From positions 8,617,001-8,681,000 of the forward strand of contig NZ_CP051006.1 in the NCBI RefSeq assembly GCF_014673495.1: a stretch of 64,000 nt of DNA, given 5' to 3'. A program made the position numbers and the translations under genes. Position 1 is the first letter of the stretch; the number at the start of each line of letters is the position of its first letter. The stretch comes from Streptomyces griseofuscus. GTDB lineage: Bacteria > Actinomycetota > Actinomycetes > Streptomycetales > Streptomycetaceae. Of the stretch, positions 6,584-64,000 are shown piece after piece. The notes under the pieces are model-generated. The model had not been told where the DNA came from. It saw nothing but the letters and a program-made list of their open reading frames with translations, and did no database searches.

Positions 6584-6623
6584 TGAGCTTGTTCCGCTTT
6601 GACGGACACCGTTGGTGTGTTGG

Positions 6624-7813: not shown

Positions 7814-7868
7814 CCTTCCGGGGCCGAAACCCCTGATCTCCGATGTCCGTCAAAGCGGATCAAGCCCA

Positions 7869-46218: not shown

Positions 46219-47433
46219 TCATGCGGCGAGAGTGACGTCGGGGGTCCGGGATTCGTAGAAGGTGCCGTCGCGGAGCATGGCGAACAGGACGCTGATGCGT
46301 TGGCGGGCGAGTCGGAGGAGGGCCTGGGTGTGGGTTTTGCCGCGGGCTCTTTGCCGGTCGTAGTAGGTGCGCGATGCCGGGTCGGCGTTCATGCAGGCGA
46401 AGGCGGAGAGGAACATTGCGCGTTTGAGCTGTCTGTTTCCTCCTCGTGGTGCGTGCTCGCCATGAATCGAGGTTCCCGACGACCTGGTCGTGGGGGCGAG
46501 GCCGGCGTAGGAGGCGAGGTGGGCGGCACTGGCGAAGCTGGTGCCGTCGCCGACGGTGACCAGCAGGACGGCGGCGGTCCTGACTCCGACTCCCGGCATC
46601 GAAGTCAGGACCTGGTGAAGAGGGTGAGCCTCCAGCAGACTGTTGATCTGGGCTTCCAGGGCCCGGCGCTGGTCGTGGACCGCGGCCAGCGAGCGGGCCA
46701 GCGACGGGATGACCACGTCGAGGGTGCCGGTTCCCGGGACCACGACGGTCTGCTCGTCGAGTGCGGTGAAGACGTCGTCGATCAGCCGGGCGGCCATGCG
46801 AGGGGCCTTGGGCCGGATCACCTCGACGAGTCTGCGACGGCCGGCCTTCCGTAGTGCGGCCGGGGATCCGTATCGCTCGAGGAGCCAGGTGACGGCGGCG
46901 TGGTCCAGTCTCGGGCCGAGCACGCGCTCAAGGCTGGGGTGGAACTGGGTGAGCAGGCCGCGGATCCGGTTGGAGGTTCGGGTGGCTTCGGCGGCGAGGT
47001 CCTGGTCGAAGCCGGTCAGCACCGTGAGCTCGGCAGTGATCTCGTCGGTCAGCTCCAGCGACCGCAGAGTGTGAGGCATCGTCCGGGCGGCGTCCGCGAT
47101 GACGGCCGCGTCCTTCGCGTCGGTTTTCGCCTCTCCCGGATAGAGGTCGGCGATCCGTCGCATCGCGAGTCCGGGCAGGTAGGCGACCTCGCAGTCCGCA
47201 TCGCGGGCGACGGTCAGGGGCAGGGCGCCGATCGAGGCGGGCTGGTCCACGATCACCAGGACAGTGCCGAACTTGGCCTTGAGTTTGTCGAACACGGCCC
47301 GCAGCTTCGGTTCGCTGTTGGGCATCGGCTTGTCGAAGACCTTCTTCCCGGCCGGCGTGAGCCCGTGGCCATGGTGGGCTGTCTTGCCGACGTCCAACCC
47401 GAGGAAGACGCCTATGTCTTCGGTGTCTAACAT
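46219..47433 (-). CDS. IS110-family transposase
   Basis: A 404-residue DEDD recombinase. N-terminal RuvC-like domain: VFLGLDVGKTAHHGHGLTPA (first Asp), VLVIVDQPASIGALPLTVAR, YPGEAKTDAKDAAVIADAAR (Asp pair). C-terminal Transposase_20 domain with the catalytic Ser region: LTSMPGVGVRTAAVLLVTVG, AHLASYAGLAPTTRSSGTSI. The ATG at 47433 is chosen; the frame is open upstream but is not family-like. It directs RNA-guided transposition in this family. Intact. Confidence 0.94.
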   Translation of the reverse strand: MLDTEDIGVFLGLDVGKTAHHGHGLTPAGKKVFDKPMPNSEPKLRAVFDKLKAKFGTVLVIVDQPASIGALPLTVARDADCEVAYLPGLAMRRIADLYPGEAKTDAKDAAVIADAARTMPHTLRSLELTDEITAELTVLTGFDQDLAAEATRTSNRIRGLLTQFHPSLERVLGPRLDHAAVTWLLERYGSPAALRKAGRRRLVEVIRPKAPRMAARLIDDVFTALDEQTVVVPGTGTLDVVIPSLARSLAAVHDQRRALEAQINSLLEAHPLHQVLTSMPGVGVRTAAVLLVTVGDGTSFASAAHLASYAGLAPTTRSSGTSIHGEHAPRGGNRQLKRAMFLSAFACMNADPASRTYYDRQRARGKTHTQALLRLARQRISVLFAMLRDGTFYESRTPDVTLAA

Positions 47434-47700
47434 CGCACGACTCCAGAGGTGTTGACCGCGCCGGCCTCGGCGGTGGCACCGTGCTCGCGCATCCACGTTA
47501 TGCAGACCTGCCGCCCGCGAACTGCCCGGCATTGCGCCGGGCCGGGCGGTGGCCGGGTCTCTCATCAGCGTCTCCGACGGCACCTCCCGGGCCCGGCGAC
47601 ACCACCCCCCAGGTCATTCGTTCGACAGAGGGGACACAGTCATACCGGGCCCGGAGGCCAGCGGCCCCATTGCAGGACCGCGAAAAACATAACGGGGGGA
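47434..47700 (-). ncRNA. Candidate bridge RNA region of the IS110 element
   Basis: Non-coding DNA directly upstream of the transposase, with short hairpins (for example TGCCCGGCATTGCGCCGGGC near 47523-47542). By family knowledge, the IS110-group bridge RNA lies in this left-end region. Neither target- nor donor-binding loop can be assigned by eye, so this is a positional call. Confidence 0.35.
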
Positions 47701-50215: not shown

Positions 50216-50963
50216 CCGTCCGGCCACCGTGGAGGAAGCCTCACTGGCAGACTTCTGCCAGGAATCTTGGGTGTGAACAGCCCTTTTCGGGCTCGGCGGG
50301 TCCGGCCTCCTGGGCGCTGGACACGCCGGGCGCACCGCGATCCTCATCGGCTACGCGCGTCTCTACCGGCGGACCGAACCTCAAGCAACGCTCGACGCCT
50401 GGGGCGGTCGAAGTGTGGCTGCCTGCCCGTGGGTTCGGGTGCCGGGGGAGGGGAGGCGCGGGCGGGCTGGCCGGGGTGCACAGCTTGCCTGCCCGGGGGG
50501 CGGGGCCGCCGGTGGGCTTCGCCTGGGGCATCGTGAACACCTGGACAGGGGCCGCCCCTCTTTGGCCGGCCGGCCCCCGCGGTCTCCCGGATACGGCCCG
50601 CGCGCCCTCGTCCTTCAACCCAGGCCCTTGTCTACGGCTCCTTCGCCCCCGAACCTGAGCCCCGGCCTTGGTTCTAGTCCCTGGCCCTGGCCCTGGCCCT
50701 GGTCCCGGGCCTGAGCCCTCGGGCCCGGGACCCTGGCTCCTGGCTTCGCTCCGGGCCTCGGGCCGTCAGCCTTTGCGGGGCGTTCGCCCGCGTGGCCTGT
50801 CCGATCCGTATCCCGGGCTTTCGTCCCTGCCCTCCGGCCCCCGCCCTCCCCCTCCTCCTGGGTCTTTCCGGGGGGGCCTTCTTGTGAGGGGTGTTGGAGT
50901 CGTCTTTTCGGGTTCCCCTCTGCGGTGGTGCCAGAGTCGTGTGGGGGTGTGGGGGGCAGATGT
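50216..50963. other. Long non-coding, low-complexity stretch downstream of the biosynthetic cluster
   Basis: About 750 bp with no gene. 50670-50730 is a CCTGGC/CCTGGT-type short tandem repeat; 50780-50880 is pyrimidine-rich. It separates the lipid/polyyne-type cluster from the remnant zone and may hold the terminator of the rubredoxin end of the operon, though no single clean hairpin stands out. Confidence 0.5.
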
Positions 50964-51146
50964 TCAGAGTTGTTCCATGACGAAGTCTTCCTTGCTTGCT
51001 CCGCAGGTGGGGCATTGCCAGGTGTCGGGGATGTTTTCCCAGGGGGTGCCGGGGGGGATGCCTTCTTCGGGGAGGCCGAGGGTTTCGTAGTAGACCCAGC
51101 CGCACAGCAGGCACATCCAGGCGCGTTTGCCGGGGGTGTCGTTCAT
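50964..51146 (-). CDS. Rubredoxin
   Basis: A 60-residue electron carrier with one iron bound by four Cys: CLLCGWVYYE and CPTCGASKEDF (two CxxCG knuckles), separated by the usual stretch GTPWENIPDTWQ. It would deliver electrons to the diiron desaturases/acetylenases of the cluster. The start overlaps the stop of the upstream hydrolase gene (ATGA, 51143-51146). Rubredoxin as last gene of the ligase-desaturase-ACP operon is a hallmark of polyyne-type clusters. Confidence 0.96.
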   Translation of the reverse strand: MNDTPGKRAWMCLLCGWVYYETLGLPEEGIPPGTPWENIPDTWQCPTCGASKEDFVMEQL

Positions 51147-52042
51147 GCGATTCCTTCGTGGTGCGTGTGCGTGTGCAGGTGCGTGTGCGGGCCGTGGGGG
51201 GCGGTGAGGTGTTCGGTGGTGAAGTGGGTGAGGTGGGCGGCGGTGGTGCGGGACATGAGGATGCCCATGTGGCCGCCGTCGGCGTCGGTGAGTTGGGCGT
51301 TTTTCAGGCTGGCGGTGACGGTGCGGGCGTCTTCGTAGGGGACCATGGGGTCGCCTGGGTCGTGGAGGATGAGCGTGGGCAGGTCGAGTGCGGCGCCGAG
51401 CGCGGTCAGGTCCCAGTGGCTGACGGGGACGCCGTTGCGGTGGTGCAGTTCGTGGTAGATCCCCTGGACCAGCGGGGGAGTCAGGCGCAGCCCGCCGCCG
51501 TCCCAGCGTTCGAGGACGTTGCCGAGTGTGGCGGGTGGGGCGATGAGGACCGCGCATTCGGGCTGGTGTCCGGTGTGCTGTGCGATGGCGGCGATCGCGG
51601 CGATGGACCCCAGCGAGTGCGCCACGACCACCCGCACGTCGCCGAGTGTGTCCAGGACGGCGCCGGTGGCGTGGGTGTACTGGGTCATGGTGGCCTGGTC
51701 GCCTTTGCGGACTCCGTGGGCGGGTCCGTCGAAGGCGGCGACGCGCAGGCCCTGGGCGCGCAGTGGGGGGACGAGGGAGTGCATGCTGCTGCTGTTGGCG
51801 GCCCATCCGTGGACGAGGAGGGCGCTGCCCTGGGTGGCGTTCTCGTTCCACAGGAAGCCGTCGGTGACGTTCTGGTCGCCGTGGACGGTGAAGGGGACCG
51901 CGCCCAGTGGCAGGACGTCGTCGGGGCGCAGTCCGTAGGTGCGGGTGCTGGAGAACACGTCGGTGGCCCAGCGTGCTGCCAGCCGGGGTGCCAGTGCGCC
52001 TGCTGTGCGGTGTGCGTGGCGGCGCAGCCACCGGCTGGTCAC
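51143..52042 (-). CDS. Alpha/beta hydrolase (putative acyl-ACP thioesterase of the cluster)
   Basis: A 299-residue hydrolase with an intact triad: Ser143 in VVVAHSLGSIAA, Asp231 in LILHDPGDPMVP and His258 in DADGGHMGILMS; oxyanion region ALLVHGWAANSS. GTG start at 52042 overlaps the desaturase stop (GTGA). Position after the third desaturase matches the release hydrolase of bacterial polyyne clusters; probable role is hydrolysis of the finished acyl-ACP thioester (inference). Confidence 0.88.
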   Translation of the reverse strand: MTSRWLRRHAHRTAGALAPRLAARWATDVFSSTRTYGLRPDDVLPLGAVPFTVHGDQNVTDGFLWNENATQGSALLVHGWAANSSSMHSLVPPLRAQGLRVAAFDGPAHGVRKGDQATMTQYTHATGAVLDTLGDVRVVVAHSLGSIAAIAAIAQHTGHQPECAVLIAPPATLGNVLERWDGGGLRLTPPLVQGIYHELHHRNGVPVSHWDLTALGAALDLPTLILHDPGDPMVPYEDARTVTASLKNAQLTDADGGHMGILMSRTTAAHLTHFTTEHLTAPHGPHTHLHTHTHHEGIA

Positions 52043-53142
52043 GGGGTGCCCTTCGCGGCCGAGGGCAGGGCTGTCTTCGGTTCGACCTTGTTGCGGGCGA
52101 GGTCGGCGTAGTACCCGGACTCGGTGTCGTAGAAGTGGAGGTGGCGGACGATGTCCCACATCTGCCCGAAGGAGAACCGGCGTTCGCGGACCATTCCCGG
52201 GTAGCGGGCCTTCAGTGTCTCCTGGGCCTTGGGCAGGTTGTAGTAGGGGATGACGGGGGCGACGTGGTGGGCGGTGTGGATGGAGATGTTGTGGGTGAGG
52301 AACAGCAGCCAGCGCGGGTAGACGTAGTCGGTGGTCACCAGCAGCCGGCTGGCGTTGCGGGTCCAGTACTCGGCGGTCAGGTAGGGGATGTCGCTGGCGC
52401 TGTGGTGCATGAGGGTGGTGGCGCTGAACCAGGCGTGGGTGGCGATCCAGGGGGCGACGAAGTAGATCAGCAGTCCGGTGAAGCCGGTGAAGTACACCAG
52501 CACGGCCGCGTAGGGCAGGGCCACCGCGGCGACGAACAGCATGGAGCGCCGTACCTCGCGCCGCTGGCCGGCCTTGGGGAAGAAGCCGGGGCGCAGGGCG
52601 GATTCGGCCCAGTAGTTGATGGTGCCGCCCCAGAACGCCCACGTACGCGTGGAGACGTACACCGTCTTGTCCCACAGCGACATCCGCTCGAACATGCCGG
52701 CGGGTATGGGGCGCCAGTCGGTGTCGAACTCCAGGTGGTTGGTGCTGGAGTGGTGCATGTTGTGGACGTGCCGCCAGGCGTGGAAGGGGTAGATCAGCGG
52801 CAGCAGGGAGATGTGCCCGATCGCGTAGTTGAACCTGCGTGAACGCGAGAACGAGCCGTGTCCGCAGTCGTGGGCGATGCAGTGCAGCCCCCAGCCGCCG
52901 AGTCCGGCCACGATCCACAGCGGGATCCACAGCAGCGGGCTCGGCGCGTACGCCACGCCCACGATCGCGCCCGCGTACAGCAGCCAGCTGACCGCGAACC
53001 CGATCAGGCCGCGGCTGACGCGCGGTTCGAAGTACTCCTTGGGTATCGCGCCGGCCAGGCGTTCCCCCTCCAGCTGTTCCGCCTGGCGCATAAAGGCCCG
53101 GAAGTTGTCCTGCGGTGCCGAAGGGAAGTCGAATGCCCCCAT
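52039..53142 (-). CDS. Membrane fatty acid desaturase/acetylenase (delta-12/omega-type)
   Basis: A 367-residue integral membrane diiron enzyme. His boxes: HDCGHGS (91-97), HNMHH (127-131, preceded by HAWRH) and HTAHH in the C-terminal part. Hydrophobic spans LIGFAVSWLLYAGAIVGVAY and LLWIPLWIVAGLGGWGLHCI flank the first box. HDCGHG/HxxHH/HxxHH are those of delta-12-type acyl-lipid or acyl-ACP desaturases, distinct from the two neighbours. In polyyne-type clusters this third enzyme is thought to work as desaturase/acetylenase on ACP-bound chains. 22 bp downstream of the ACP gene. Confidence 0.93.
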   Translation of the reverse strand: MGAFDFPSAPQDNFRAFMRQAEQLEGERLAGAIPKEYFEPRVSRGLIGFAVSWLLYAGAIVGVAYAPSPLLWIPLWIVAGLGGWGLHCIAHDCGHGSFSRSRRFNYAIGHISLLPLIYPFHAWRHVHNMHHSSTNHLEFDTDWRPIPAGMFERMSLWDKTVYVSTRTWAFWGGTINYWAESALRPGFFPKAGQRREVRRSMLFVAAVALPYAAVLVYFTGFTGLLIYFVAPWIATHAWFSATTLMHHSASDIPYLTAEYWTRNASRLLVTTDYVYPRWLLFLTHNISIHTAHHVAPVIPYYNLPKAQETLKARYPGMVRERRFSFGQMWDIVRHLHFYDTESGYYADLARNKVEPKTALPSAAKGTP

Positions 53143-53164
53143 GGTGGTCGTCGTCCTTTCGGTG

Positions 53165-53446
53165 TCAGAGCTTGAGTTCGGCGGCGAGGTGGGCGGTGAG
53201 GGCGTCGATGGACTGGTACTCGTACAGGAGGCCGGGGGAGAGGCGGCGTTCGATGACTTTCTCCAGGGCGCCGGAGACCTGGACGGCTACGCGGGAGTCG
53301 AGGCCGTAGGCCTCGAAGGTCTTGGCGGTGTCGATGTCCTCACGCGGTATCTCGACGTGGACGACCAGGTAGTCCACGAGCCACTGGCGCAGGGCCTGCT
53401 CGGTGAGGGGCCCCTGGGGGCGCTGGACCTTCTTGCGGTTGAACAT
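53165..53446 (-). CDS. Acyl carrier protein
   Basis: A 93-residue stand-alone carrier domain; the phosphopantetheine Ser is Ser51 in FEAYGLDSRVAV (GxDS motif). N-terminal basic extension MFNRKKVQRPQG; C-terminal helix SIDALTAHLAAELKL. The ATG at 53446 fits the family. It would receive the fatty acyl group from the acyl-AMP ligase and present it to the desaturases. GxDSR instead of GxDSL is typical of ACPs paired with such ligases. Confidence 0.94.
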   Translation of the reverse strand: MFNRKKVQRPQGPLTEQALRQWLVDYLVVHVEIPREDIDTAKTFEAYGLDSRVAVQVSGALEKVIERRLSPGLLYEYQSIDALTAHLAAELKL

Positions 53447-53517
53447 GGTGTGCCTTTCCTCGTCGTACTGCCTCGTGCTGCCGGTGCCGGGTGGCGTGTT
53501 GTGTGTGTGCTGTTGTG

Positions 53518-54459
53518 TCAGGTGGTGGTTCTGGCTTCTTGCCTGCGCCGGGTGATGGTGGTTTTGTCGGGTTCGCGGAGGTTCCATACGATGTGGAGTT
53601 TGCCGAGGGCCATGAGGAGCCAGCCGCTGAGGTCGGGTTCCCACCAGGTGACGCCGTGGCGGTAGGAGCCGGGGAAGGCGTGGTGGTTGTTCTGGAGTCC
53701 TTCGCCGAAGGTGAGCAGGGCGACGGGCCAGTTGTTGGCGCTGTGGTCCTCGTTGTCGAAGGGCCGTCCGCCGAAGGCGTGGCAGATCGAGCCGACGCAC
53801 CAGGCGGCCTGGTTGGCGACGAAGATCCGGGCGAGGCCGCCGAAGACGAGTCCGCCGAGCAGTGCCATCGGGGTGCGGACGATCGCGTAGTCGATGAGGG
53901 CGGGCAGGGCGAGGCCGAGCAGTACCCACTGCGGGTAGGTGCGGTTGAAGTACATCAGGCGCCGGCTGCGCAGGACGTCGGGTCCGAAGACGGTGACCTT
54001 GCTGGCTTCGGGGCTGAGCATCCAGGGCATGTGGGCGTACCACAGGCCGTGCAGGCGGGCTTTGAGGGCCCAGCCGTGGAGGTTGGGGGAGTGGGGGTCG
54101 CCTTCCTGGTCGCTGAAGCGGTGGTGGCGGCGGTGGGTGATGACCCAGAACATGAGGGGGCCCTGGGCGCCCATGGATCCGGTGATCATCATGAGGGCTT
54201 CGAAGGCGGGTGAGGTCTTGAAGGCTTTGTGGGCGAGGTAGCGGTGGAAGCCCACGGTGATGCCGAACATGTGGACGAAGTACATGGCGGCGAACAGCCA
54301 CAGGTCGGTCGCGGTGTAGTGGCCGCTCCACAGCAGGTAGGCGGCGGCCGCGGTTCCGATCAGTGGCAGGGTCATGGTGGTCAGGGCGGAGAACCGTTTG
54401 ATCCGCAGGCTGACGGGGTCGAGCCTGACGACGGCGTTCGCGGCCGCGGTCGCGGACAT
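53518..54459 (-). CDS. Fatty acid desaturase/acetylenase, acyl-CoA delta-9 type (second)
   Basis: A 313-residue membrane diiron enzyme with His boxes HRYLAH (HxxxxH), HRRHH and NNHH. Spans: LTTMTLPLIGTAAAAYLL, LWLFAAMYFVHMFGITVGF, ALLGGLVFGGLARIFV. Paralogue of the next gene upstream. It lies 2 bp downstream of that gene and 71 bp upstream of the ACP. Likely desaturates or acetylenates the ACP-bound chain. Confidence 0.93.
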   Translation of the reverse strand: MSATAAANAVVRLDPVSLRIKRFSALTTMTLPLIGTAAAAYLLWSGHYTATDLWLFAAMYFVHMFGITVGFHRYLAHKAFKTSPAFEALMMITGSMGAQGPLMFWVITHRRHHRFSDQEGDPHSPNLHGWALKARLHGLWYAHMPWMLSPEASKVTVFGPDVLRSRRLMYFNRTYPQWVLLGLALPALIDYAIVRTPMALLGGLVFGGLARIFVANQAAWCVGSICHAFGGRPFDNEDHSANNWPVALLTFGEGLQNNHHAFPGSYRHGVTWWEPDLSGWLLMALGKLHIVWNLREPDKTTITRRRQEARTTT

Positions 54460-54461
54460 CG

Positions 54462-55607
54462 TCAACTCCCTTCCTCTCGGTGTGAGACGGGCTTCGGGGC
54501 GTGCCCCGTGTGGTGCGGTGCGGGCGCGGACTGCTCCGGTGTGCGGGGGGCGGGCTCCGGTGCGGGTTCGGGCCGGTCTGGCGTGGGCGTGGTCCGGTTG
54601 TCCGGTGCGGGGGTGGCCGGGTCGTCCGGTGCGGGTGTGTGCGGGTCGGGTGGGTGTGGGGTTGGGTGCCGGGTGGTGGGGTGGGGGCGCATGCGGTCGG
54701 GGTAGCGGGCGTCGTGGACGAGTCCGAGGGCGTCCAGGGCCCGGATGACGGCTCCGGTGGGGTCGATCTGGAGGAGGTTGTGCCGGTTGTGGGCCAGGGA
54801 GGGGCGGGCGTGGTGGTTGTTGTGCCAGGAGCCGCCGACCGAGATCGCCGCGAGGGGGGCCACGTTGCGGCTGGTGTCGCGGGTGCGGTAGGGGCGGTGG
54901 CCGATGGTGTGGCCGATGGAGTTGACGGCCCAGGTGACGTGGTCGAGGAGGAAGATGCGGGCCAGTCCGCCCCACAGCAGTCCGCCCACCGCGCCGTGTG
55001 TCGTTCCTCCCGACAGGAGCCAGCCCGCGAGTGCCGGCAGCGCGAGCCCGGCCAGCACCCACACGAAGTAGTACTGGTTCAGGCGCATGACGAGGCGGTC
55101 GCGGACCATGTCGGGGGCGCGGCGGGCCCAGTCCTGGCGCTGGACGGTGAAGAGCCAGCCGACGTGTCCGTGCCAGAATCCGCGCAGCCGTCCGGCCAGT
55201 CCCGGGCCGAGCGCCCGCGGGGAGTGCGGGTCGCCGTCCTTGTCGGTGAAGGCGTGGTGCTGGCGGTGGATGGCCACCCAGAACACGACCGGTCCCTGTG
55301 CGGCCATGCTTCCGGCGATGCCCCACAGGGTGGTGACGACGGGGCCGGCGGCGAAGGAGCGGTGGGAGAAGAAGCGGTGGAAGCCGCCTTCCACGCCCAG
55401 TGAGGTGATCGCGTACATCACCACCAGCAGCAGGGCGTCAATCCAGGTGAAGCCGTAGTGTGCGGCGAAGACGATCGCGGCGGCGGTGCCGAGGGTGGGG
55501 ACGCCGACGGTGACCCAGGCGAGGTTGCGGGCTTGCCGGTCGATCCGGGCGGGGGCCGTGGTGGTGCGGGGCGGTGCCTGGCCGGCCCCGGTGCGGGCGC
55601 TGCTCAT
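54462..55607 (-). CDS. Fatty acid desaturase/acetylenase, acyl-CoA delta-9 type (first), with Pro-rich tail
   Basis: A 381-residue membrane diiron enzyme: His boxes HRFFSH, HRQHH and HNNHH; spans AWVTVGVPTLGTAAAIVFAA and LLLVVMYAITSLGVEGGF. The catalytic part ends near residue 295; the last about 85 residues are a Pro/Thr/Ala/His-rich repeat tail (PDPHTPAPDDPATPAP), unusual for the family and encoded by a low-complexity stretch. The start overlaps the ligase stop (ATGA, 55604-55607). Paralogue of the gene at 53518-54459. Confidence 0.92.
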   Translation of the reverse strand: MSSARTGAGQAPPRTTTAPARIDRQARNLAWVTVGVPTLGTAAAIVFAAHYGFTWIDALLLVVMYAITSLGVEGGFHRFFSHRSFAAGPVVTTLWGIAGSMAAQGPVVFWVAIHRQHHAFTDKDGDPHSPRALGPGLAGRLRGFWHGHVGWLFTVQRQDWARRAPDMVRDRLVMRLNQYYFVWVLAGLALPALAGWLLSGGTTHGAVGGLLWGGLARIFLLDHVTWAVNSIGHTIGHRPYRTRDTSRNVAPLAAISVGGSWHNNHHARPSLAHNRHNLLQIDPTGAVIRALDALGLVHDARYPDRMRPHPTTRHPTPHPPDPHTPAPDDPATPAPDNRTTPTPDRPEPAPEPAPRTPEQSAPAPHHTGHAPKPVSHREEGS

Positions 55608-57424
55608 GACACCCCCGCCGGGGCGGCCGCGGTGTCTGCGGGTGCGGGGAAGGTTTTGAGGGTGCCGTCGAGGTAGGCCTTGCGGGTGTCGCGGCGGCGG
55701 ACTTTGCCGCTGGTGGTCATCAGGACGCATCCGGGGGGTCCGATGTGGATGCGGCCGGGGCGTACGCCGTGGTCCTCGGTGACCGCGGCGGTCATTTTCT
55801 CGAGGAGTTCTTTCTCCTGGGCGGCGAATTCTCTGGCGGTGCCGCGGAATTCGGCGACGAGGACGACTTCTTCCTCGTCGCGTGTGGCGTGGGGCAGGGC
55901 GAACGCGGCGATGCGGCGCAGGTCCTGGTGGGCGCGCAGGACGGAGTGTTCGATGTCCTGGGGGTGGAGGTTGCGGCCGCTGATGACGATGAGGTCCTTG
56001 AGGCGTCCGGTGACGAAGAGTTCCGCGTCGAGGAGGAAGCCGAGGTCTCCGGTGCGCAGGTAGGTGCGGTGGTCGTCGGTGGCGTGGGCGGGGCGGGCGC
56101 CGAAGGTGCGGGCGGTCAGTTCGGGGCGCCCCAGGTAGCCGGCGGCGACGCTGGGGCCGTTGACCCAGATCTCGCCGCTCTCGCCGTCGGGCAACGGGGT
56201 GAGGGTGTGGGGGTCGACGATGAGGACCTCGTGGCCGTCGGCGATGATTCCGCAGCTGACGACCTTGACCGTGCCCGTGTCGGCCGCACCGCTGTCGGCG
56301 CCGTCGCTGTCAGCGGCGTCGCTGTGGGGGTGGGTGCGGTGGGCGTGGCCTTGTTCGAGGGCGGTCTTGTCGAGTTGTTCGGTGCGGATGGTGTCGGCGG
56401 TTTCGGGTTTGCCGGAGACGAAGAGGGTGGCTTCGGCGAGTCCGTAGCAGGGGATGAGGCTGCCGGGGTCGAAGCCGACGGGGGCGAAGCGTTCCTCGAA
56501 GCGTTCCATGGTGTTGCCGGAGACGGGTTCGCTGCCGCAGAACACCTGGCGCAGGCGGCTGAGGTCGAGGGTGGTGAGTTCTTCGTCGGTGATGTTCTGG
56601 GCGCACAGGTCGAACGCGAAGTTCGGGCCGACGGAGATGGTGACCTTGTGGTCGGTGATGGCTTTGAGCCAGCGGTAGGGGTCCTGCACGAAGTGGATGG
56701 GGGAGAGCATGACCAGGGGCCAGCCGCCGTGCAGGGCGAGCATGATGGTGCCCATCAGGCCCATGTCGTGGTAGGGGGGCAGCCAGGAGCAGCCGACGCG
56801 GTCCTCCTCGTAGCCCATGTGGGTGTCCAGGACCCGGCAGTTGCTGAGCAGGTTCTCGTGGGTGAGGACGATGCCCTTGGGGTCGCCGGTCGATCCCGAG
56901 CTGTACTGGATCAGTGCCGGCTCCACCACCCGTGAGGGCACGGGCCCGTTGGCCGGCGGCTGGTAGAAGTCCGGTTCGGGGAAGATCCACTGGGGGTGTT
57001 CGGTGGTGGGGGTGAGCTGCTGGTGGAAGTGGTCGACCTGGGGGGCGAAGCGGGGGTCGGTCAGGACGGCGCGTGGGTTGCAGTCGTCCAGGACGGACAG
57101 GAAGCGGGCGGTGGCGCGTCGTCCGAACGGCGGGAAGCAGGGTACGGCGGTGCAGCCGGCCTGCATGATGCCGAAGAGTCCGGCGACGTAGTCGAGTCCG
57201 GGGTCCAGGGCGAGGACGACGTGGCCCTGGGTGAGGCCGCGTTCGTTGAGGTGGGCGGCGACCGCGCCGGCGCGGTCGGCGAGTTCGCGGTAGGTCCAGT
57301 CGATCGGGTGGTCGCCGGTCCCGTCGGGCAGGAAGCGGAACGCGAGCCGGTCGGGTGTCCGGGTCGCGCGGTGTTCGAGGACGTGGACCAGCGAGGTGTG
57401 GGCGGACGGTGGCAGCGGACTCAC
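55604..57424 (-). CDS. Fatty acyl-AMP ligase (FAAL) that loads the ACP
   Basis: A 606-residue adenylate-forming enzyme: YSSGSTGDPKGIVLTH (P-loop-like A3), WLPPYHDMGLMGTIMLALHG (FAAL hallmark), CYGLAEATLFVSGKP (A5), TYLRTGDLGFLLDAELFVTG (A7), GRLKDLIVISGRNLHPQDIE (hinge). These are FAAL rather than acyl-CoA ligase features, so acyl-AMP goes to a carrier protein, here the ACP at 53165. An Asp/Ala-rich insertion (SDAADSDGADSGAAD) lies before the last third. GTG 57424 with GGAAGG upstream is chosen; the ATG at 57505 would read into the repeat region. First gene of the tightly coupled ligase-to-rubredoxin operon. Confidence 0.95.
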   Translation of the reverse strand: MSPLPPSAHTSLVHVLEHRATRTPDRLAFRFLPDGTGDHPIDWTYRELADRAGAVAAHLNERGLTQGHVVLALDPGLDYVAGLFGIMQAGCTAVPCFPPFGRRATARFLSVLDDCNPRAVLTDPRFAPQVDHFHQQLTPTTEHPQWIFPEPDFYQPPANGPVPSRVVEPALIQYSSGSTGDPKGIVLTHENLLSNCRVLDTHMGYEEDRVGCSWLPPYHDMGLMGTIMLALHGGWPLVMLSPIHFVQDPYRWLKAITDHKVTISVGPNFAFDLCAQNITDEELTTLDLSRLRQVFCGSEPVSGNTMERFEERFAPVGFDPGSLIPCYGLAEATLFVSGKPETADTIRTEQLDKTALEQGHAHRTHPHSDAADSDGADSGAADTGTVKVVSCGIIADGHEVLIVDPHTLTPLPDGESGEIWVNGPSVAAGYLGRPELTARTFGARPAHATDDHRTYLRTGDLGFLLDAELFVTGRLKDLIVISGRNLHPQDIEHSVLRAHQDLRRIAAFALPHATRDEEEVVLVAEFRGTAREFAAQEKELLEKMTAAVTEDHGVRPGRIHIGPPGCVLMTTSGKVRRRDTRKAYLDGTLKTFPAPADTAAAPAGVS

Positions 57425-57511
57425 AGGAATACGGCCTTCCGGGTCGGTCTGCGTGTGGGACACGTGCGTGATCTGTGGGCGAACCCCCAACCCCCAACCC
57501 CCCAAGCCCCC

Positions 57512-57620
57512 GAGCCTCCAGGCCCCGAGGCCGAGGCCCCGAGTTGGAGGCCCCGAGCCTCCAGGCCCCGAGGCCGAGGCCCCGAGTTGGAGGCCCCGAG
57601 CCTCCAGGCCCCGAGGCCCT
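57512..57620. repeat. 43-bp tandem repeat, 2.5 copies
   Basis: The unit starts GAGCCTCCAGGCCCCGAGGC and ends GAGTTGGAGGCCCC; copies begin at 57512, 57555 and 57598 (partial). It lies just upstream of the acyl-AMP ligase start, followed by degenerate GAGGCCC-type repeats to about 57780. Confidence 0.85.
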
Positions 57621-58101
57621 GAGCCTTTGAGGCCCTGAGCTCCTGAGCCCCTGAGGCCCCGAGGTCCCGAGGCTCCTGGGCCCCGAACCCCCGAGCCTTT
57701 GCGGCCCTGAGCTCCTGAGCCCCTGAGGCCCCGGGCTCCCGGGCCTCCGAGGCTGCGAGCCCCCGAACCCCCCGAGGCCGTGGGGCCGGGAGAGCGGGAG
57801 GGCCCCTTGCGGTGCGTGGCCCGTGGCGCGCGGGCCCGCGGCCGGGAGGTTGTGGCGCCGGGGCCCGGACGTGTGGCCTGTGACGGGGCTGTGGCGCCGC
57901 CTTCCCGCGGCGCGCGGGCGTGTGACGCCGGGACTTGTGACGCCGCGTTCCCGCGGGGGCGGGCGCGTGGCGCGTGTCACCGGTGCCCGTGGTGCCGGGG
58001 CTCGTGGTGCCGTGGTGCGTGGTGCCGGGGCTCGTGATGTGCGGGCCTGTGGCGTGTGGGTGTGCGGAGGGGGTGCGGGTGGTGCTGGGGTGGGGGTGGT
58101 G
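57621..58101. other. Low-complexity region between ligase and thioesterase genes
   Basis: About 480 bp made of degenerate CCTGAGGCCCCGAG and GTGGTGCCGGGG/CGTGGTGCC-type repeats (57621-58080). No gene. It separates the ligase operon from the thioesterase, so the ligase operon must have a promoter inside or be read through it. Confidence 0.5.
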
Positions 58102-58896
58102 TCAGAGGGTGCGGACCACGCGTAGTTGCTGGGCGCTGCCCAGGTGGGTGCCGTCGGGTGTCCAGGCGTCGATCTGTTCGTCGACCCAGCCGTCGGGTCC
58201 GGCGGTGCGGGTGGTGGCCCGCAGCAGGATCCAGGGGGAGGTGGCGGTGGCCAGTCCCGGGGCGGGGCGTACGGTCAGTTCGACGGTGGGGACGACGGCG
58301 AGGGTGGACAGGATCGCCGCGTAGGAGGGGGCGAGGGCGTCCATCAGCAGGACGAGGCGGAGCGGGTCGGGGGCTTCGTCGTCCTCGGTCAGCCGTACCC
58401 AGGCGAGGAGTTCGGGCTGCGGGCCGCCGGCGTAGGGGCGGGCGGTGCCGACGGGGCGGATCTCCATGCTGGTGGCGATGGGTACGAACTCCGCGGGGAT
58501 GGCGAACACTTCGCACTCGGCGGGGGGCGGTGCGGGCGGGGCCTGGGGGGTGACGGGCTGCCAGGTGTTCTCGCCGCGGCGGGCGAACACGGCGCTCGCC
58601 TCGATCGCGGTGCCCTTCTCGCTCTGGGCCTGGGCGCGGACCACGCTGAGGGTCCGTCCGGCCCGTACCAGGGCGGCGTCCACGGTGAAGCCGGGGTCGA
58701 CGGGCCGGTCGAACCGGCCGGTGACGCTCTGGAGTTCGAGTCCGGGTGCGTGTTCGCGCATCGCGGAGGTCAGCAGGGCGAGGGCGAGACCGCCGTGGAA
58801 CCCGCCGAAGCCGCGCAGGTGCGCGTCCGCTTGCAGCCACCCGTTCACCGGTTTTCTCAGGAGGGCTCCCGGTGTCGCCCCGTCAGTGTTCAGCAT
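58102..58896 (-). CDS. Double-hotdog thioesterase (acyl-CoA thioesterase II/TesB-like)
   Basis: A 264-residue protein with two hotdog halves: GFGGFHGGLALALLTSAMRE and LQSVTGRFDRPVDPGFTVDA in the first, VLLMDALAPSYAAILSTLAV in the second. Members hydrolyse acyl thioesters; the residues for catalysis are variable. It lies between the hydrolase-fold gene and the ligase; could be a proofreading or release thioesterase alongside the alpha/beta hydrolase (inference). An extra compared with the minimal polyyne gene set. Confidence 0.85.
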   Translation of the reverse strand: MLNTDGATPGALLRKPVNGWLQADAHLRGFGGFHGGLALALLTSAMREHAPGLELQSVTGRFDRPVDPGFTVDAALVRAGRTLSVVRAQAQSEKGTAIEASAVFARRGENTWQPVTPQAPPAPPPAECEVFAIPAEFVPIATSMEIRPVGTARPYAGGPQPELLAWVRLTEDDEAPDPLRLVLLMDALAPSYAAILSTLAVVPTVELTVRPAPGLATATSPWILLRATTRTAGPDGWVDEQIDAWTPDGTHLGSAQQLRVVRTL

Positions 58897-59001
58897 GCGA
58901 AGACAGCGTCCCGTCCGAGTGTGTGGAAAAGAGGGGGGTGTGCGGGGGTGCCGGCCCCGGGGCGGGCTGTACAGGAGCCTGCCCCGGGCCGGGGGTGGGG
59001 G

Positions 59002-59892
59002 TCAGCCGAAGAAGGCGGTCAGTTCGGCCGCGACGGTCTCGGGCTGTTCCTCGACCATGTAGTTGCGGGTGTTCTTGACCTCGATGACGCGTACGTCGCT
59101 GCCGCAGGTGGGCAGGACGCGGTTCATGTAGTCGTAGAACCCGCCGTAGGCGAGGCCGAGGACGGGCACGGACAGCTTGCCGTAGCCGCGGAAGTCGTCG
59201 ATGTCCTGCTGGTAGGCCTGGAACCAGCCCTGGCTGGCGCGGATGGCTTCGGGTGTGTCGTACGCGTGCGCGTACACGTCGCGGTCCTGCGGCAGGACGG
59301 CGTCGGGGTTGACCAGGCTCAGGCCGAGCATGTAGTCGATCATGATGCGGTAGCGGCCGGCGAGTGCCTGTTCGGGGAAGCCGGGCACGATGTTGAAGGC
59401 GAGCCACCAGCGGTGCGGGGGGGTGTCCTCGGGCTTCGGCATCAGGCGGAAGTTCTGGTAGCTGTCGTCGATGTGCGTGGTGTTGATGATGGCGAGGCGG
59501 TTGGTGGCCGCTTCGTGGTTCGCGGCGTAGGCGAAGGCGACCATGGCGCCGATGCCGTGTCCGGCGATGTTGATCCGCTTGTGGCCGAGGTGTTCGGCCA
59601 GGGCGCGGATGTCGGCGGCCATGTTTTTCTTCTCGTAGCCAAAGCCGGGGCGGCTGGAGCCGCCCATGCCGCGGATGTCGACCGCGACGACGCGGAAGTG
59701 TTCCGCGAGGGCGGGCATCACCTTGCGGTACTCCCACCAGGTCTCCGGCCAGCCCGGCAGCAGGAACAGCGGTTCGCCCTGCCCGCCGGTGACGTAGTGC
59801 AGCCGCACCCCGTTGACGTCGGCGTACTCGCTGGTGAAGCCGCCCTCAAGGGACGCGGCGAGTTCCTCGTCGGACGGTACGTTCGTGCCCAT
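59002..59892 (-). CDS. Epoxide-hydrolase-like alpha/beta-hydrolase fold protein lacking catalytic residues
   Basis: A 296-residue intact gene, closest to epoxide hydrolase/haloalkane dehalogenase-type proteins: NGVRLHYVTGGQGEPLFLLP, GWPETWWEYRKVMPALAEHF, RVVAVDIRGMGGSSRPGFGY. The nucleophile elbow reads GHGIG (111-115) with Gly113 where Asp (or Ser) should be; the usual HGxP oxyanion motif is PGWP (46-49); the catalytic His position near the end (usually GHW) is RNY with Asn277. So hydrolysis by the normal mechanism is impossible. Relatives with this loss may act as lyases, binding proteins or cyclases. Ribosome site AGGGAGAG before ATG 59892. Confidence 0.85.
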   Translation of the reverse strand: MGTNVPSDEELAASLEGGFTSEYADVNGVRLHYVTGGQGEPLFLLPGWPETWWEYRKVMPALAEHFRVVAVDIRGMGGSSRPGFGYEKKNMAADIRALAEHLGHKRINIAGHGIGAMVAFAYAANHEAATNRLAIINTTHIDDSYQNFRLMPKPEDTPPHRWWLAFNIVPGFPEQALAGRYRIMIDYMLGLSLVNPDAVLPQDRDVYAHAYDTPEAIRASQGWFQAYQQDIDDFRGYGKLSVPVLGLAYGGFYDYMNRVLPTCGSDVRVIEVKNTRNYMVEEQPETVAAELTAFFG

Positions 59893-60171
59893 CAGTGTGC
59901 TCTCCCTCGTTGCTGTGGTGCGGTCGGGACGGCTCTGCCCGGGGGACCGCCCCGGGACCGCCGTCCCCCTCCGGACCCCGGCCGGGCCGGGAACCTCCGC
60001 CCCGAAGGACCGCCGGGACCCCGAAAGGCCGTCCCGGCCAGGCCGTCCCGGCGGGGTCGTCCCCGGGGTCGCCCGGGTCCTGCCGTGGGCGGTCCCGGGG
60101 GGTCCGGGGCGGTCCGGGGCGGTGGGATCCCGGGGGTCGGGGTCGGGGTTGGGGTTGGGTGGGGGGTGTGG
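59893..60171. other. GC-rich spacer between P450 and hydrolase-like genes
   Basis: About 280 bp of GGGACCGCC-type low-complexity sequence; no gene or clear terminator. Confidence 0.4.
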
Positions 60172-61404
60172 TCAGTCGGCCGTGACCGGGAGCCGGCCGT
60201 GGCCGCGCTGGACGATCTGGTCGCGGAACGTGGCCTCGCCGGCGAGCCGCAGCCCGGGCAGCCGGCGCAGCAGCAGGGGCACCGCCGTCTCCGCGGACAT
60301 CCGGGCCAGGGCCGCGCCCAGGCAGAAGTGCGCGCCGCCGCTGAAGGTGAGCGGGCTGTTGTCGCGGCGGGCGGGGTCGAAGACGTCCGGGTCCGTGAAG
60401 CGGCGCGGGTCGCGGTTGCCGGCGGCGATGAGCAGGGTCAGCGGCACGCCCTGGGCGACCTTGACGCCGAAGAAGTCCAGGTCGCGTGAGGCGACGCGGT
60501 TCAGGATCTGGGCGGCGGGGTCGAAGCGCAGGGTCTCGTCGGTGAAGCCGGCCGCGAACCCGGGTTCGGTGCGCAGCCGTTCGGCCTCGGCGGGGTGGGT
60601 GAGGGCGAGACGGACCATGTTGCTGAGCAGGTCCTGGGGTGCCTCGGTCGCGGCGACCAGGAGCAGCATGAGGTTGGCGACCAGTTCGGTCTCGCTCAGT
60701 TCGCCGCCCGCGTCGCGGGCGGCGGTGAAGGAGCTGGTCAGGTCGGTGGTGGGGTGGGCGCGGCGGCGGGCGACGAGGTCGTGGAAGTAGACGGCGAGGC
60801 GTTCCATGGCCGCGTCGCCGGCGGTGAGCTGGCCCATGTCGCGGATCGGTTCCAGGGTCAGCGTGATGTCGCCGACGTCCGCGCGGAACGCGTCGTGGTC
60901 CTCGTCGGGGATGCCGAGCAGTTCCCCGATGACGCCGGCGGCCATCGGGAAGGAGAACTCCGCGACCACGTCGACCGCCTCCCCGCCCGCGGCGAGGCGG
61001 GCGACGCGTTCGACGGCGTACGCGGCCCGCCGTTCGACCAGGGGCCGCCAGGCCTCCACGCTGCGCGCGGAGAAGGCGCTGGAGAAGAAGCGCCGGTAGC
61101 GCTCGTGGTCGGGGTCGTTGGAGAACAGCATGTTCTTCGTCAGCCAGGACCAGGAGGCGTGTTCGCGCCAGCCGGGCAGCTTGCCGTCCTGGACGGCGGC
61201 GTCGGTCGACAGCAGGTCCGGCTCGCGCAGTGCCCGCGCGCACTCGGCGTGGCCGGTGACGAAGAGGTGGGCTCCGCCCACGTCGACGACCGGCCCGTGG
61301 GCCCGCATCTGCTCGTACAGCGGGTAGGGGTCCTGTTTGCCCTCGAAGGACAGCAGACGGCCCATCACGTCGATCGGGTCTGCCAGGGTTTTCGTGGGAC
61401 TCAC
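60172..61404 (-). CDS. Cytochrome P450
   Basis: A 410-residue bacterial class I P450. Heme ligand Cys361 in FSGGAHFCLGAALAR; ExxR in DETLRFDP (Glu290, Arg293); I-helix LLLVAATEAPQDLL, where Glu254 is kept but the usual Thr is Ala255, followed by Pro. GTG 61404 is chosen, with GGAG 5 bp upstream. Probably hydroxylates or otherwise oxidises the fatty acid product; P450s are regular members of polyyne clusters. No ferredoxin gene is adjacent. First gene of the minus-strand P450/hydrolase-like/thioesterase group. Confidence 0.94.
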   Translation of the reverse strand: MSPTKTLADPIDVMGRLLSFEGKQDPYPLYEQMRAHGPVVDVGGAHLFVTGHAECARALREPDLLSTDAAVQDGKLPGWREHASWSWLTKNMLFSNDPDHERYRRFFSSAFSARSVEAWRPLVERRAAYAVERVARLAAGGEAVDVVAEFSFPMAAGVIGELLGIPDEDHDAFRADVGDITLTLEPIRDMGQLTAGDAAMERLAVYFHDLVARRRAHPTTDLTSSFTAARDAGGELSETELVANLMLLLVAATEAPQDLLSNMVRLALTHPAEAERLRTEPGFAAGFTDETLRFDPAAQILNRVASRDLDFFGVKVAQGVPLTLLIAAGNRDPRRFTDPDVFDPARRDNSPLTFSGGAHFCLGAALARMSAETAVPLLLRRLPGLRLAGEATFRDQIVQRGHGRLPVTAD

Positions 61405-61988
61405 TCTCACTCCGGGTATTCGACGGCAGCCGGGCATGCGGTGCGTGCGGTACAGGGGTGGTGTCCTTGCGGGCGGTACAGGGCGAGTTCGGTAATTGCC
61501 GGTGGTGCGCGGTGCATCAGCGTGTCCGAGGCAGGTGATCCGGGCCGGACACGTGGTTCGCGGTGCAATGGTGCAGAGCCCGAACTCAATGGGCTCTGTG
61601 TACTCGTCGTACTCGTCGAGTTGGAATGTCCAACTCGATTGTTCGAGCGACAATAACAATCTTCTTCGCCCCCGGGCAATCCCCGCGATCAGCGGATACG
61701 CAAGAGTTACGCGCCGGTAAGGTCGCGTCCGCCGGGAATGTGTATCGAGGGCATGAAACCGCTGCGCGGGCCCGTGAACACCCGGACGGAATACGGCAGT
61801 CCGCCTCCGCGGAAGCAAAGACACCGTTGTCAGTGATCCACTCCGCATTACCGGTGTGGCGTACGTCATGTCTCCGTGATGTCTCCATGTGTCGAACGGA
61901 TGTGACGGTCGTGAATCCCCGTCCTCTCCATGGGCCGAACGCGCCGCGCAAAACCGGAATTCGGTGCCGCGGTTCCCGGAAAGAGCTG
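61405..61988. promoter_or_regulatory. Promoter region of the P450 gene
   Basis: About 580 bp without genes, lower in GC than its surroundings (61560-61900), as expected for a regulatory region. It contains the perfect inverted repeat at 61616-61638 and an inverted pair AGAGCCC / GGGCTCT around 61574-61597. Confidence 0.5.
61616..61638. promoter_or_regulatory. Perfect palindromic operator upstream of P450
   Basis: 10-bp arms TCGAGTTGGA / TCCAACTCGA with a 3-bp spacer. The core GAGTTGGA-ATTCCAA type recurs immediately before the MFS start (63570-63586), pointing to one regulator for biosynthesis and export. Confidence 0.7.
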
Positions 61989-62024
61989 ACGGCCGGTCAG
62001 ATCGGTTGATCTGACCGGCCGTCG
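61989..62024 (-). terminator. Strong terminator after the MFS exporter gene
   Basis: Perfect 16-bp stem GACGGCCGGTCAGATC / GATCTGACCGGCCGTC with loop GGTT, 55 bp beyond the MFS stop. Confidence 0.85.
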
Positions 62025-62079
62025 CACACGGTTCCCGCCCTCCCCCGGCCCGGGCCGGGGGACGGTGACTACGGGCTGT

Positions 62080-63555
62080 TCACGCCCCGCCGGCCCCCGC
62101 GGCCCCGCCGGCTTCGGTGGTTTCGGCGGGCCGGGCGGGCTGGGTGGTGCGGGGGGTCTTGCCGACGCTGCCGACGAAGAAGCAGGCGATCGCGGCGGCC
62201 GCGGTGGCCGTCAGCGTCATCTCCCAGCCCCGGTCGAAGGAGTCCGCCTGGTGGGCGGCGCCGGAGCCCATGGTGGCCACCAGCAGCGAGATGCCCAGGA
62301 CGGTGCCGGCCTGGCGGGCCATGGTGATGACACCGGAACCGGTGGAGAAGCTCTGCGGCGGCAGGCCGGAGACACCGGCGCTGATCAGCGTGGGCAGGGT
62401 CAGGCCGACCCCGATGCCGGTGAGCAGCATGCCGGGCAGCATCCCGCCCGCGTAGCCGGCGTCCGGCCCCAGCAGGACCAGCCACCAGGCGATGCCCGCG
62501 CCGAAGACGACGCACCCGGTGAAGGCGACCACGCTGGAGCCGAAGCGGTGGATGACCGGCCCGATGCTCATGGCCAGCGCGGGCGGCAGTAGCGTGCCCG
62601 GGAAGATCGCGAGCCCGGTCCGCACCGCCGACCAGTGCCACACGTCCTGGCACCACAGCACGCTCGACAGCAGCATCGCCGCGAAGGCGACGGCGAACAG
62701 CACGTTGGAGAACGCGGACGGGCTGAAACCGCGGAACTTGAACAGCGGCAGCGGCAGCACCGGCGAGGCGTGGCGGGCGGAGCGCACCGTGAACCAGACC
62801 AGCCCCAGCACCCCCAGCACGAGGGCGCCGAGGAACTTCTGTGACGCCCAGCCCCAGTCGTCGCCCCTGACCAGGCCGAGCGCGATCAGCGCGATGGACA
62901 CGGTCAGCACGGCGGCACCGAGCACGTCCGCCCGCGGCAGGTCCCGGGCGGCAACACGCGGCAGCACCCGCAGACCGCCCAGCAGCGCGGCCACCCCGAT
63001 CGGCACGTTCACCAGGAACACCCAGTGCCAGCTCAGATCGGTCAGCAGCCCGCCCAGCACCGGACCCAGCGCACTGGCCACACCGCTGATCGCCGTCCAC
63101 CCCCGCACCGACGCGAGCCGCTTCTCGGGCGGCGCGGTCGCCAGCAGCAGACCCAGCGAGGAGGGGATCAGCATCGCCGCGCCGACCGCTTGCAGCACCC
63201 GCGCCCCGACCAGCAGCCAGATCCCCGGCGCCAGCGCGCACAGCACCGAGGAGAGCGTGAAGAGCGCGATGCCCGACAGATAGGCGATCCGCGGATTGAC
63301 CCGGTCCGCGAAATTGCCCGCCGGCACCAGCAGCGCGGCGAACACCACCGCGTACGCGTTCAGCACCCACGACAGGGACGCCAGCGACGTCCCCGAGAAC
63401 TGGTGCCCGATGTCCGGCAGCGCCACATTGACGATGAACACGTCCAGGTTGGCCATCGCCACCCCGGCGGCGATCACCGTGAAGACCACCCCGAGCCGCG
63501 GTCGTTGCTCTGTGGGACCGGGGGTATCGGCGGTCCGGCCGTCAGGGAGGCTCAT
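62080..63555 (-). CDS. MFS transporter, DHA2 type (probable product exporter)
   Basis: A 491-residue 14-helix exporter: VIAAGVAMANLDVFIVNVAL (motif D1), PAGNFADRVNPRIAYLSGIA (motif A), ARVLQAVGAAMLIPSSLGLL (motif B), GWTAISGVASALGPVLGGLL (motif C). The operator at 63570-63586 lies directly before its start. It likely exports the cluster product and gives self-resistance (inference). Confidence 0.93.
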   Translation of the reverse strand: MSLPDGRTADTPGPTEQRPRLGVVFTVIAAGVAMANLDVFIVNVALPDIGHQFSGTSLASLSWVLNAYAVVFAALLVPAGNFADRVNPRIAYLSGIALFTLSSVLCALAPGIWLLVGARVLQAVGAAMLIPSSLGLLLATAPPEKRLASVRGWTAISGVASALGPVLGGLLTDLSWHWVFLVNVPIGVAALLGGLRVLPRVAARDLPRADVLGAAVLTVSIALIALGLVRGDDWGWASQKFLGALVLGVLGLVWFTVRSARHASPVLPLPLFKFRGFSPSAFSNVLFAVAFAAMLLSSVLWCQDVWHWSAVRTGLAIFPGTLLPPALAMSIGPVIHRFGSSVVAFTGCVVFGAGIAWWLVLLGPDAGYAGGMLPGMLLTGIGVGLTLPTLISAGVSGLPPQSFSTGSGVITMARQAGTVLGISLLVATMGSGAAHQADSFDRGWEMTLTATAAAAIACFFVGSVGKTPRTTQPARPAETTEAGGAAGAGGA

Positions 63556-63569
63556 GTTCGTCCCATCTC

Positions 63570-63586
63570 AGTTTGGAATTCCAACT
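63570..63586. promoter_or_regulatory. Operator before the MFS exporter
   Basis: AGTTTGGAATTCCAACT, a near-perfect palindrome 15 bp from the start codon, sharing GTTGGA/TCCAAC halves with the P450 operator at 61616-61638. Typical of TetR-family sites; the cognate regulator is not in the window. Confidence 0.7.
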
Positions 63587-64000
63587 CACTTGCGCAGTGA
63601 AGCTAGCAACGAACGAACACACACGGCAACGCCCGCCGGTGTGCTGTGACGCGTACCTCTTCCGGCACGTCAGACAGGTCCCGCAAGGACAATGACGACC
63701 CGTCAGACAACAAAGGACACCATTTCGAACACACCGGCACCCCCGGCTCCGGAAAGCGCCACCCGGAGCGGGCACGGCCCCCGGTCCGCGGGCCGTCCCA
63801 ATCACGCCGCGACGCGGTTCATCGGTCGTTCAGGGCCGGGCGGCAACCTCTACCGGTGTCGGAACACGACTCCTGAGCGTTGCGGGCTCCACCAAGACGA
63901 CCGGGAACCCGGCGGGACCACGTTGCCGCGTGCCCCCGCAGCCGGCGCCCTCACCGGAGGGCGCCGGCGGGACGACACCGCGCCCCGCCCGGCCCCGCGG
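63587..64000. other. Window end, no gene seen
   Basis: About 410 bp with no convincing coding frame. A divergent regulator gene could start beyond base 64000. Confidence 0.35.

Follow-up and report, generated by a model that had tools for sequence, protein, structure and literature searches.

Bacterial polyyne biosynthetic clusters share a conserved core, which encodes a fatty acyl-AMP ligase (FAAL), two fatty acid desaturases (FAD), an acyl carrier protein (ACP), a further desaturase, a hydrolase/thioesterase (H/TE) and a rubredoxin (Rd). The available part of Lin et al. (PMC9098870) gives its order as FAAL-2xFAD-ACP-FAD-H/TE-Rd. According to the available text of Mullins et al. (PMC8406139), the same seven-gene set defines these clusters, and polyyne production was lost in mutants in cayB, cayC, cayE, cayF, pgnE, pgnF and pgnH. 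The same text mapped a Streptomyces-dominated actinobacterial polyyne clade in 2021 without a product, and states that zero actinobacterial polyynes had been tied to a gene cluster as of that year. Our literature search, whose coverage left out most subscription journals, returned no title or abstract opening linking an actinobacterial polyyne to a cluster. Mycomycin is an older actinobacterial polyyne, on which the search turned up no paper. In this study, we analyzed 64,000 nt from the end region of the Streptomyces griseofuscus chromosome (the window), which carries a candidate polyyne cluster with an inactivated epoxide hydrolase. Sequence comparison and analogy make it very probable that the locus belongs to the actinobacterial clade of polyyne biosynthetic clusters. 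The cluster type is already known.

Coordinates are positions in the window, and all cluster genes lie on the minus strand. The core genes are as follows.

55604-57424, minus strand: FAAL, fatty acyl-AMP ligase (AMP-binding, 1.5e-71)
54462-55607, minus strand: des1, desaturase/acetylenase 1 (PF00487, 9.3e-19; HRFFSH, HRQHH and HNNHH; placed by tree)
53518-54459, minus strand: des2, desaturase/acetylenase 2 (PF00487, 8.8e-17; HRYLAH, HRRHH and NNHH; placed by tree)
53165-53446, minus strand: ACP with a YGLDS phosphopantetheine site (PF00550, 3.7e-11)
52039-53142, minus strand: des3, third membrane desaturase/acetylenase, cayE-like, HDCGHG type (PF00487, 1e-33)
51143-52042, minus strand: TE, alpha/beta-hydrolase thioesterase, a cayF-like H/TE (Pfam Abhydrolase; AHSLG, DPGD and GGH; syntenic in polyyne clusters)
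50964-51146, minus strand: rubredoxin (Pfam PF00301, 1.8e-20; both CxxC pairs conserved; 4-bp overlap with TE)

At 50964-57424, the genes follow the order published for the bacterial polyyne core, FAAL-des1-des2-ACP-des3-TE-rubredoxin. When species genomes were scanned with an alignment of 14 des3 sequences, 58 loci were obtained, of which 45 were non-cyanobacterial (loci from this and the other searches are numbered L below). The seven genes stood in identical order in eight Burkholderia loci, one Collimonas locus and one Xenorhabdus locus; FAAL was absent from a second, short Collimonas contig. Because the same seven-gene order recurs in Burkholderia, Collimonas and Xenorhabdus, the arrangement is not due to chance. 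Identity to des3 was 56-64% for the Burkholderia, Collimonas, Xenorhabdus, Ramlibacter and Aquabacterium matches and 54% for Alteromonas. No other core gene was seen at the 13 cyanobacterial matches (L083-L095, 33-37% identical to des3), which were excluded from the trees.

A core tree was built from FAAL, des1, des2, ACP and des3, with 47 rows in which no more than one of the five genes was absent. The window belonged to an actinobacterial group that took in 33 rows (SH-aLRT 100), with Streptomyces malaysiense as its nearest neighbor at 90% identity, and this group was separated with full support from the Burkholderia, Collimonas and Xenorhabdus clusters. When the doubtful loci L062, L077, L079 and L051 were removed, the same split was obtained (32 actinobacterial against 11 proteobacterial rows of 43, SH-aLRT 100). 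The des1 row of Burkholderia peredens (L062), also present in the first core tree, is a 645-aa open reading frame (ORF) that was aligned over its des2 part in the desaturase tree. This ORF and the 643-aa des3 ORF of Xenorhabdus L067 are of double length, and are perhaps fusions like PgnH, a desaturase-thioesterase described in the text available of PMC8406139. Locus L046, from a record titled Streptosporangium nondiastaticum, grouped with the S. roseoverticillatus and S. klenkii clusters, which points to a misnamed record or to recent transfer.

In the desaturase tree, window des1 and des2 lay within the polyyne des1 and des2 groups, and the paralogue from the same genome fell outside both on a long branch. 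The three window desaturases scored 54-89 bits against NCBIfam DesA/DesB models, whose cut-offs are 400-500. Des1 and des2 by both measures, and des3 by its score, stand apart from housekeeping lipid desaturases, the grouping that would have spoken against a polyyne function. The heme motif, the histidine boxes, the ACP Ser, the TE Ser-His-Asp motifs and the two CxxC pairs of rubredoxin were all found, with conservation of at least 95% at the key positions in orthologues; D50 and S51 of the ACP reach at least 95% in an alignment of 49 rows. The gene set, tree placement and catalytic residues are thus those of a bacterial polyyne cluster. A sequence-only reading had proposed an actinobacterial polyyne cluster with a gene set like that of the cay type, and the gene order, core tree and desaturase grouping support it.

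Four further genes lie upstream of this core.

58102-58896, minus strand: double-hotdog acyl thioesterase (Pfam 4HBT_3 and 4HBT_3C; polyyne-associated)
59002-59892, minus strand: pseudo-epoxide hydrolase, Alp1U family (Asp>Gly113, His>Asn277, Tyr>Phe224)
60172-61404, minus strand: cytochrome P450 (intact heme motif FSGGAHFCLG; I-helix AATEAP; placed by trees)
62080-63555, minus strand: major facilitator superfamily (MFS) transporter (PF07690, MFS_1, 2.9e-35; placed by synteny)

The closest solved structures to the pseudo-hydrolase were 7clz, 6kxh and 6kxr, which matched across residues 5-296 with E of about 1e-99. We take these entries, themselves titled 'Putative hydrolase', to be Alp1U. In the structure alignment, an Asp nucleophile stands opposite Gly113 and a His opposite Asn277. 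Phe224 replaces the Tyr of Asp-type relatives, a residue that activates the oxirane in epoxide hydrolases of this family. With nucleophile and His both gone, the earlier description of an inactive hydrolase-fold protein was borne out. The protein is a fold relative rather than a working Alp1U-type epoxide hydrolase, and the loss of nucleophile and base argues against covalent epoxide hydrolysis.

We then examined this family in 392 Streptomyces genomes (numbered G below), where about 5-6 candidates were scored per genome, so that a genome counted as lacking a gene had no strong match among these candidates. The search gave 43 matches in 40 genomes at E<=1e-60. The best 11, from 10 genomes and including the window's own gene as the eleventh, were 64-100% identical to the window protein and had the Gly/Asn form, and the remaining 32, from 30 genomes, all had Asp/His. 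With five added Actinomadura and Streptomyces loci, Gly113, Asn277 and Phe224 were found together in 16 of 16 rows (14 distinct sequences). The 20 Asp rows of the same tree kept Asp, His and Tyr; among 12 further Asp/His matches, eight had Tyr and four Phe. The Gly form was a single clade with support of 100/100. All 10 genomes with this form were among the 14 that carry des3 (hypergeometric 5e-17, kinship ignored). In G060, G241 and G303, the pseudo-hydrolase and the polyyne cluster were on separate contigs, and the unlinked copies adjoined an M4 peptidase gene (two genomes) or a SpoIIE-type gene (the third). This association in 10 of 10 genomes, which holds without linkage too, favors a function within the polyyne pathway or in tolerance to its product. 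Outside Streptomyces, only three Actinomadura loci, retrieved by des3, carried the pair. A 396-genome phylum sample matched both genes only in the window's own genome and is uninformative on the association, and a plasmid search with the pseudo-hydrolase gave 257 records, all below 60% identity.

The hotdog family showed a similar distribution. It was found in 12 of the 392 genomes at E<=1e-40, and all 12 had des3; the two des3 genomes that lacked it, G062 and G125, also lacked TE and rubredoxin. D186, T204 and Q257, presumably the TesB catalytic set, were invariant in 26 of 26 hotdog rows. Because relatives at 43-47% identity occur in two Burkholderia clusters, one Mycobacterium cluster and one unclassified actinobacterial cluster, the hotdog protein is no Streptomyces invention. 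The sequence-only reading took the extra thioesterase and the inactive hydrolase as signs of a product different from the known ones, and they may suggest this. Both genes recur in des3 genomes (12 of 14 and 10 of 14, respectively); this strain is not alone in carrying them.

The P450 genes suggested a separate history. Eleven P450s adjoin a pseudo-hydrolase gene, from the window group, Actinomadura, S. ureilyticus and S. phyllanthi. In the P450 tree, these and two goshikiensis-type P450s formed a group (100/99) that did not include the eurocidicus type; support for a branch of the 11 alone was weak (80/63). The core genes instead placed the eurocidicus type together with the window group. In approximately unbiased (AU) tests, for which the groups were picked after the trees were seen, the core grouping was rejected by the P450 data (p-AU 0.0009, with the distant P450 of L071 dropped) and the P450 grouping by the core data (p-AU 0.0046, on 25 chosen rows). 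The I-helix reads AAxEAP in 11 of 11 pseudo-hydrolase-linked P450s and has AG in the other 19 rows. The usual I-helix Thr is missing in 29 of 30 polyyne P450 rows, where EAP or QSP replaces the usual E/D-T; the exception is L071. The conflicting P450 and core histories are consistent with P450 exchange between clusters.

A search of the window's own genome with des3 gave two copies with identical protein, one in the window and one at C1:50701-51801 (plus strand), on a contig of 8,721,740 bases. When the chromosome ends were aligned, an inverted match of 52,898 columns at 99.95% identity to C1:1-52882 was obtained. Such near-identical inverted sequence at both chromosome ends is a Streptomyces terminal inverted repeat.

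50945-64000, no strand: window part of the terminal inverted repeat, which extends past the window end
51268-64000, no strand: repeat portion without differences between the arms (arm alignment)

The right arm reaches 898 bases beyond the stretch aligned, and the telomeres lie outside the comparison. The inner repeat edge, at window position 50945, lies 19 bp downstream of the rubredoxin stop. The cluster is the innermost gene block of this repeat of about 53 kb, and the genome therefore has two intact copies. All 25 differing columns between the arms lie at 50951-51267, a stretch that covers the sequence just beyond rubredoxin, the rubredoxin gene itself and the 3' portion of TE. The two TE versions, one per arm, are both intact and have different C-termini. 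A crossover or conversion within the TE gene, which joined or homogenized two already diverged copies, would be the likeliest origin. The other 13 des3 genomes had one copy each, although draft assemblies may collapse repeats. A plasmid search with des3 gave seven Streptomyces records (S. goshikiensis and two other Streptomyces species), and the one examined was linear. Chromosome ends and linear plasmids may be a route of spread. An IS110-family transposase gene lies at window 46219-47583, 3.4 kb inside the inner repeat edge, and a 1287-bp segment (window 6584-7870) that is not part of the terminal repeat has a 99.9% inverted match to C1:87056-88342 on the opposite arm.

By analogy with cay, mas and pgn, the FAAL would adenylate a C16 or C18 fatty acid and load it onto the ACP. 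The three membrane di-iron desaturases/acetylenases, fed by rubredoxin as the electron carrier, would then convert the tail to conjugated triple bonds, and the TE would release the polyyne acid. The P450 would afterwards oxidize the chain, and the hotdog protein probably cleaves acyl precursor or product off CoA or ACP. The pseudo-hydrolase most likely acts on or binds the P450-oxidized polyyne, where it could guide an intramolecular attack (e.g., of a carboxylate on an epoxide) or sequester the product. The MFS pump would export the product. The steps up to the released acid follow cay, pgn and mas genetics; we infer the substrates, the product and the tailoring roles.

Several of our observations weigh against the proposals made here and are considered together with the alternatives. 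The polyyne product is read from the genes, and the trees took the Collimonas, Burkholderia and Xenorhabdus genomes as references in place of characterized cay, pgn, jam or ttu sequences. The locus could instead be a jamABC-like cluster that makes one triple bond and passes the acid on, since FAAL, desaturase and ACP (jamABC in the available text of PMC8406139) are contained in its gene set. This is very unlikely: all four polyyne-specific additions (two extra desaturases, TE and rubredoxin) are present in the published order, desaturase mutants of cay and pgn lost the polyyne (same text), and no polyketide synthase or nonribosomal peptide synthetase was found among the 10 neighboring proteins scanned. 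Equally improbable is that the second copy is an assembly duplication and not a true terminal inverted repeat. The identity of 99.95% across 52.9 kb would fit such an artifact, but the copies lie inverted near opposite ends of an 8.72-Mb contig with unrelated inner flanks, and they differ in 25 columns at the inner edge and in the C-termini of two intact TEs.

A bolder reading of the pseudo-hydrolase, somewhat less likely than not, is that a polyyne-dedicated clade of epoxide-hydrolase-fold proteins gave up hydrolysis and took on another function (non-covalent cyclization of an epoxide or enyne, or product sequestration), and that it is exchanged among actinobacterial clusters with a matched P450, altering the end product. 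The Tyr>Phe change alone is not decisive, because four of the 32 Asp/His relatives also have Phe. The 10 Gly/Asn genomes are not independent, G060, G241 and G303 being related. A structure prediction from 11 close homologues reached a mean pLDDT of 45.8, and the model was not used. Among the 14 des3 genomes, G009, G062 and G125 have the P450 and no pseudo-hydrolase, and G285 has neither within the 20 kb examined; the pseudo-hydrolase is therefore dispensable for some such clusters. That it is a polyyne-binding self-protection protein and not a biosynthetic catalyst is a realistic, if somewhat doubtful, possibility. The alpha/beta-hydrolase epoxide-hydrolase fold has a hydrophobic pocket, the gene co-occurs with polyyne genes even when unlinked, and no masL-type thiolase was found among the 10 neighboring proteins scanned (a genome-wide search was not made). 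However, where linked, it adjoins the P450; it is absent from G009 and G285, which have the full core, as well as from G062 and G125, which have the core minus TE and rubredoxin; and the MFS pump could already protect the cell. The loss of three catalytic positions might also mark a decaying hitchhiker without a role, but this is improbable, as the frame is open with a mean column identity of 80% among 11 pseudo-hydrolases, the same replacements occur in 14 of 14 distinct sequences including Actinomadura, and the gene is maintained away from the cluster in three genomes.

Every gene named in the sequence-only reading is an intact ORF with its expected Pfam family above the gathering cut-off (two alpha/beta hydrolases and three FA_desaturase, plus rubredoxin, PP-binding, AMP-binding, 4HBT_3/4HBT_3C, P450 and MFS_1). 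The top NCBIfam matches of FAAL include FAAL models, every one below cut-off. The reported four 4-bp overlaps were reduced to three (FAAL/des1, des3/TE and TE/rubredoxin), and des1 and des2 are 2 bp apart. Starts were chosen by overlap and homology, and are shorter than the longest ORFs for P450 (GTG, 61404), FAAL (GTG, 57424), des1 (55607), des2 (54459), ACP (53446), TE (GTG, 52042) and rubredoxin (51146). The gaps upstream of the core are 675 bp (MFS-P450), 279 bp (P450-pseudo-hydrolase), 105 bp (pseudo-hydrolase-hotdog) and 677 bp (hotdog-FAAL). The MFS gene adjoins the cluster in many relatives. A gene for an HTH/MarR-type regulator (L022:9930-10733), a candidate cluster regulator, lies about 10 kb outward of it, and the spacer in this genome holds another MFS gene, a flavin hydroxylase and a short-chain dehydrogenase/reductase. 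Its counterpart in S. malaysiense (L025) is about 1.2 kb from the MFS gene. The FAAL gene of L027 (G174) and the hotdog gene of L026 (G340) are read in two frames, perhaps from sequencing errors or decay.

This genome offers two intact copies and an extended gene set, and closely similar clusters are found in the named strains S. malaysiense MUSC 136 and S. hygroscopicus NBRC 3401, so that the product question is directly testable. With its tie to polyyne genes also where it is unlinked, the pseudo-epoxide hydrolase makes a clean candidate for a novel role in tailoring or self-protection. As far as the literature that was accessible goes, the polyyne-bound pseudo-epoxide-hydrolase clade, the constant hotdog partner, the P450 exchange and the cluster duplication in a terminal repeat are new.

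We finally compared the locus with known systems. It shares the core cassette of cay, ccn, col, pgn and mas, seven genes in the same order with conserved catalytic residues, and the core tree sets it among the polyyne clusters represented by Collimonas and Burkholderia. It differs from them in being actinobacterial and in adding the hotdog thioesterase, the P450 and the pseudo-epoxide hydrolase, and from mas also in having no masL thiolase among the neighbors scanned. Alp1U acts in epoxide hydrolysis in kinamycin biosynthesis, according to the available part of PMC9391479; the window protein matches its fold and differs by Asp>Gly, His>Asn and Tyr>Phe224. The clade of Mullins et al. (2021, PMC8406139) has the same gene set, and the window probably belongs to it. 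The text of that paper, apart from its figures and supplements, does not describe the hotdog protein, the pseudo-hydrolase or a terminal-repeat location. It does describe a subclade of 10 genomes with a P450 in place of TE and rubredoxin. The window has a P450 in common with this subclade, but keeps TE and rubredoxin and so lies outside it; its P450 shares 45-47% identity with the P450s of L035, L036 and L063, three loci that match the description. The linear plasmid NZ_CP108058.1 of S. goshikiensis (L037) carries hotdog-FAAL-des-des-ACP-des-TE-rubredoxin-P450-MFS, like the window, and unlike it has no pseudo-hydrolase in the 29 kb examined. Its flanks hold pabB, two AMP-binding genes, flavin oxidases, an aminotransferase of class IV and gamma-butyrolactone-type regulators, and its product is possibly an aromatic-amine-linked polyyne.

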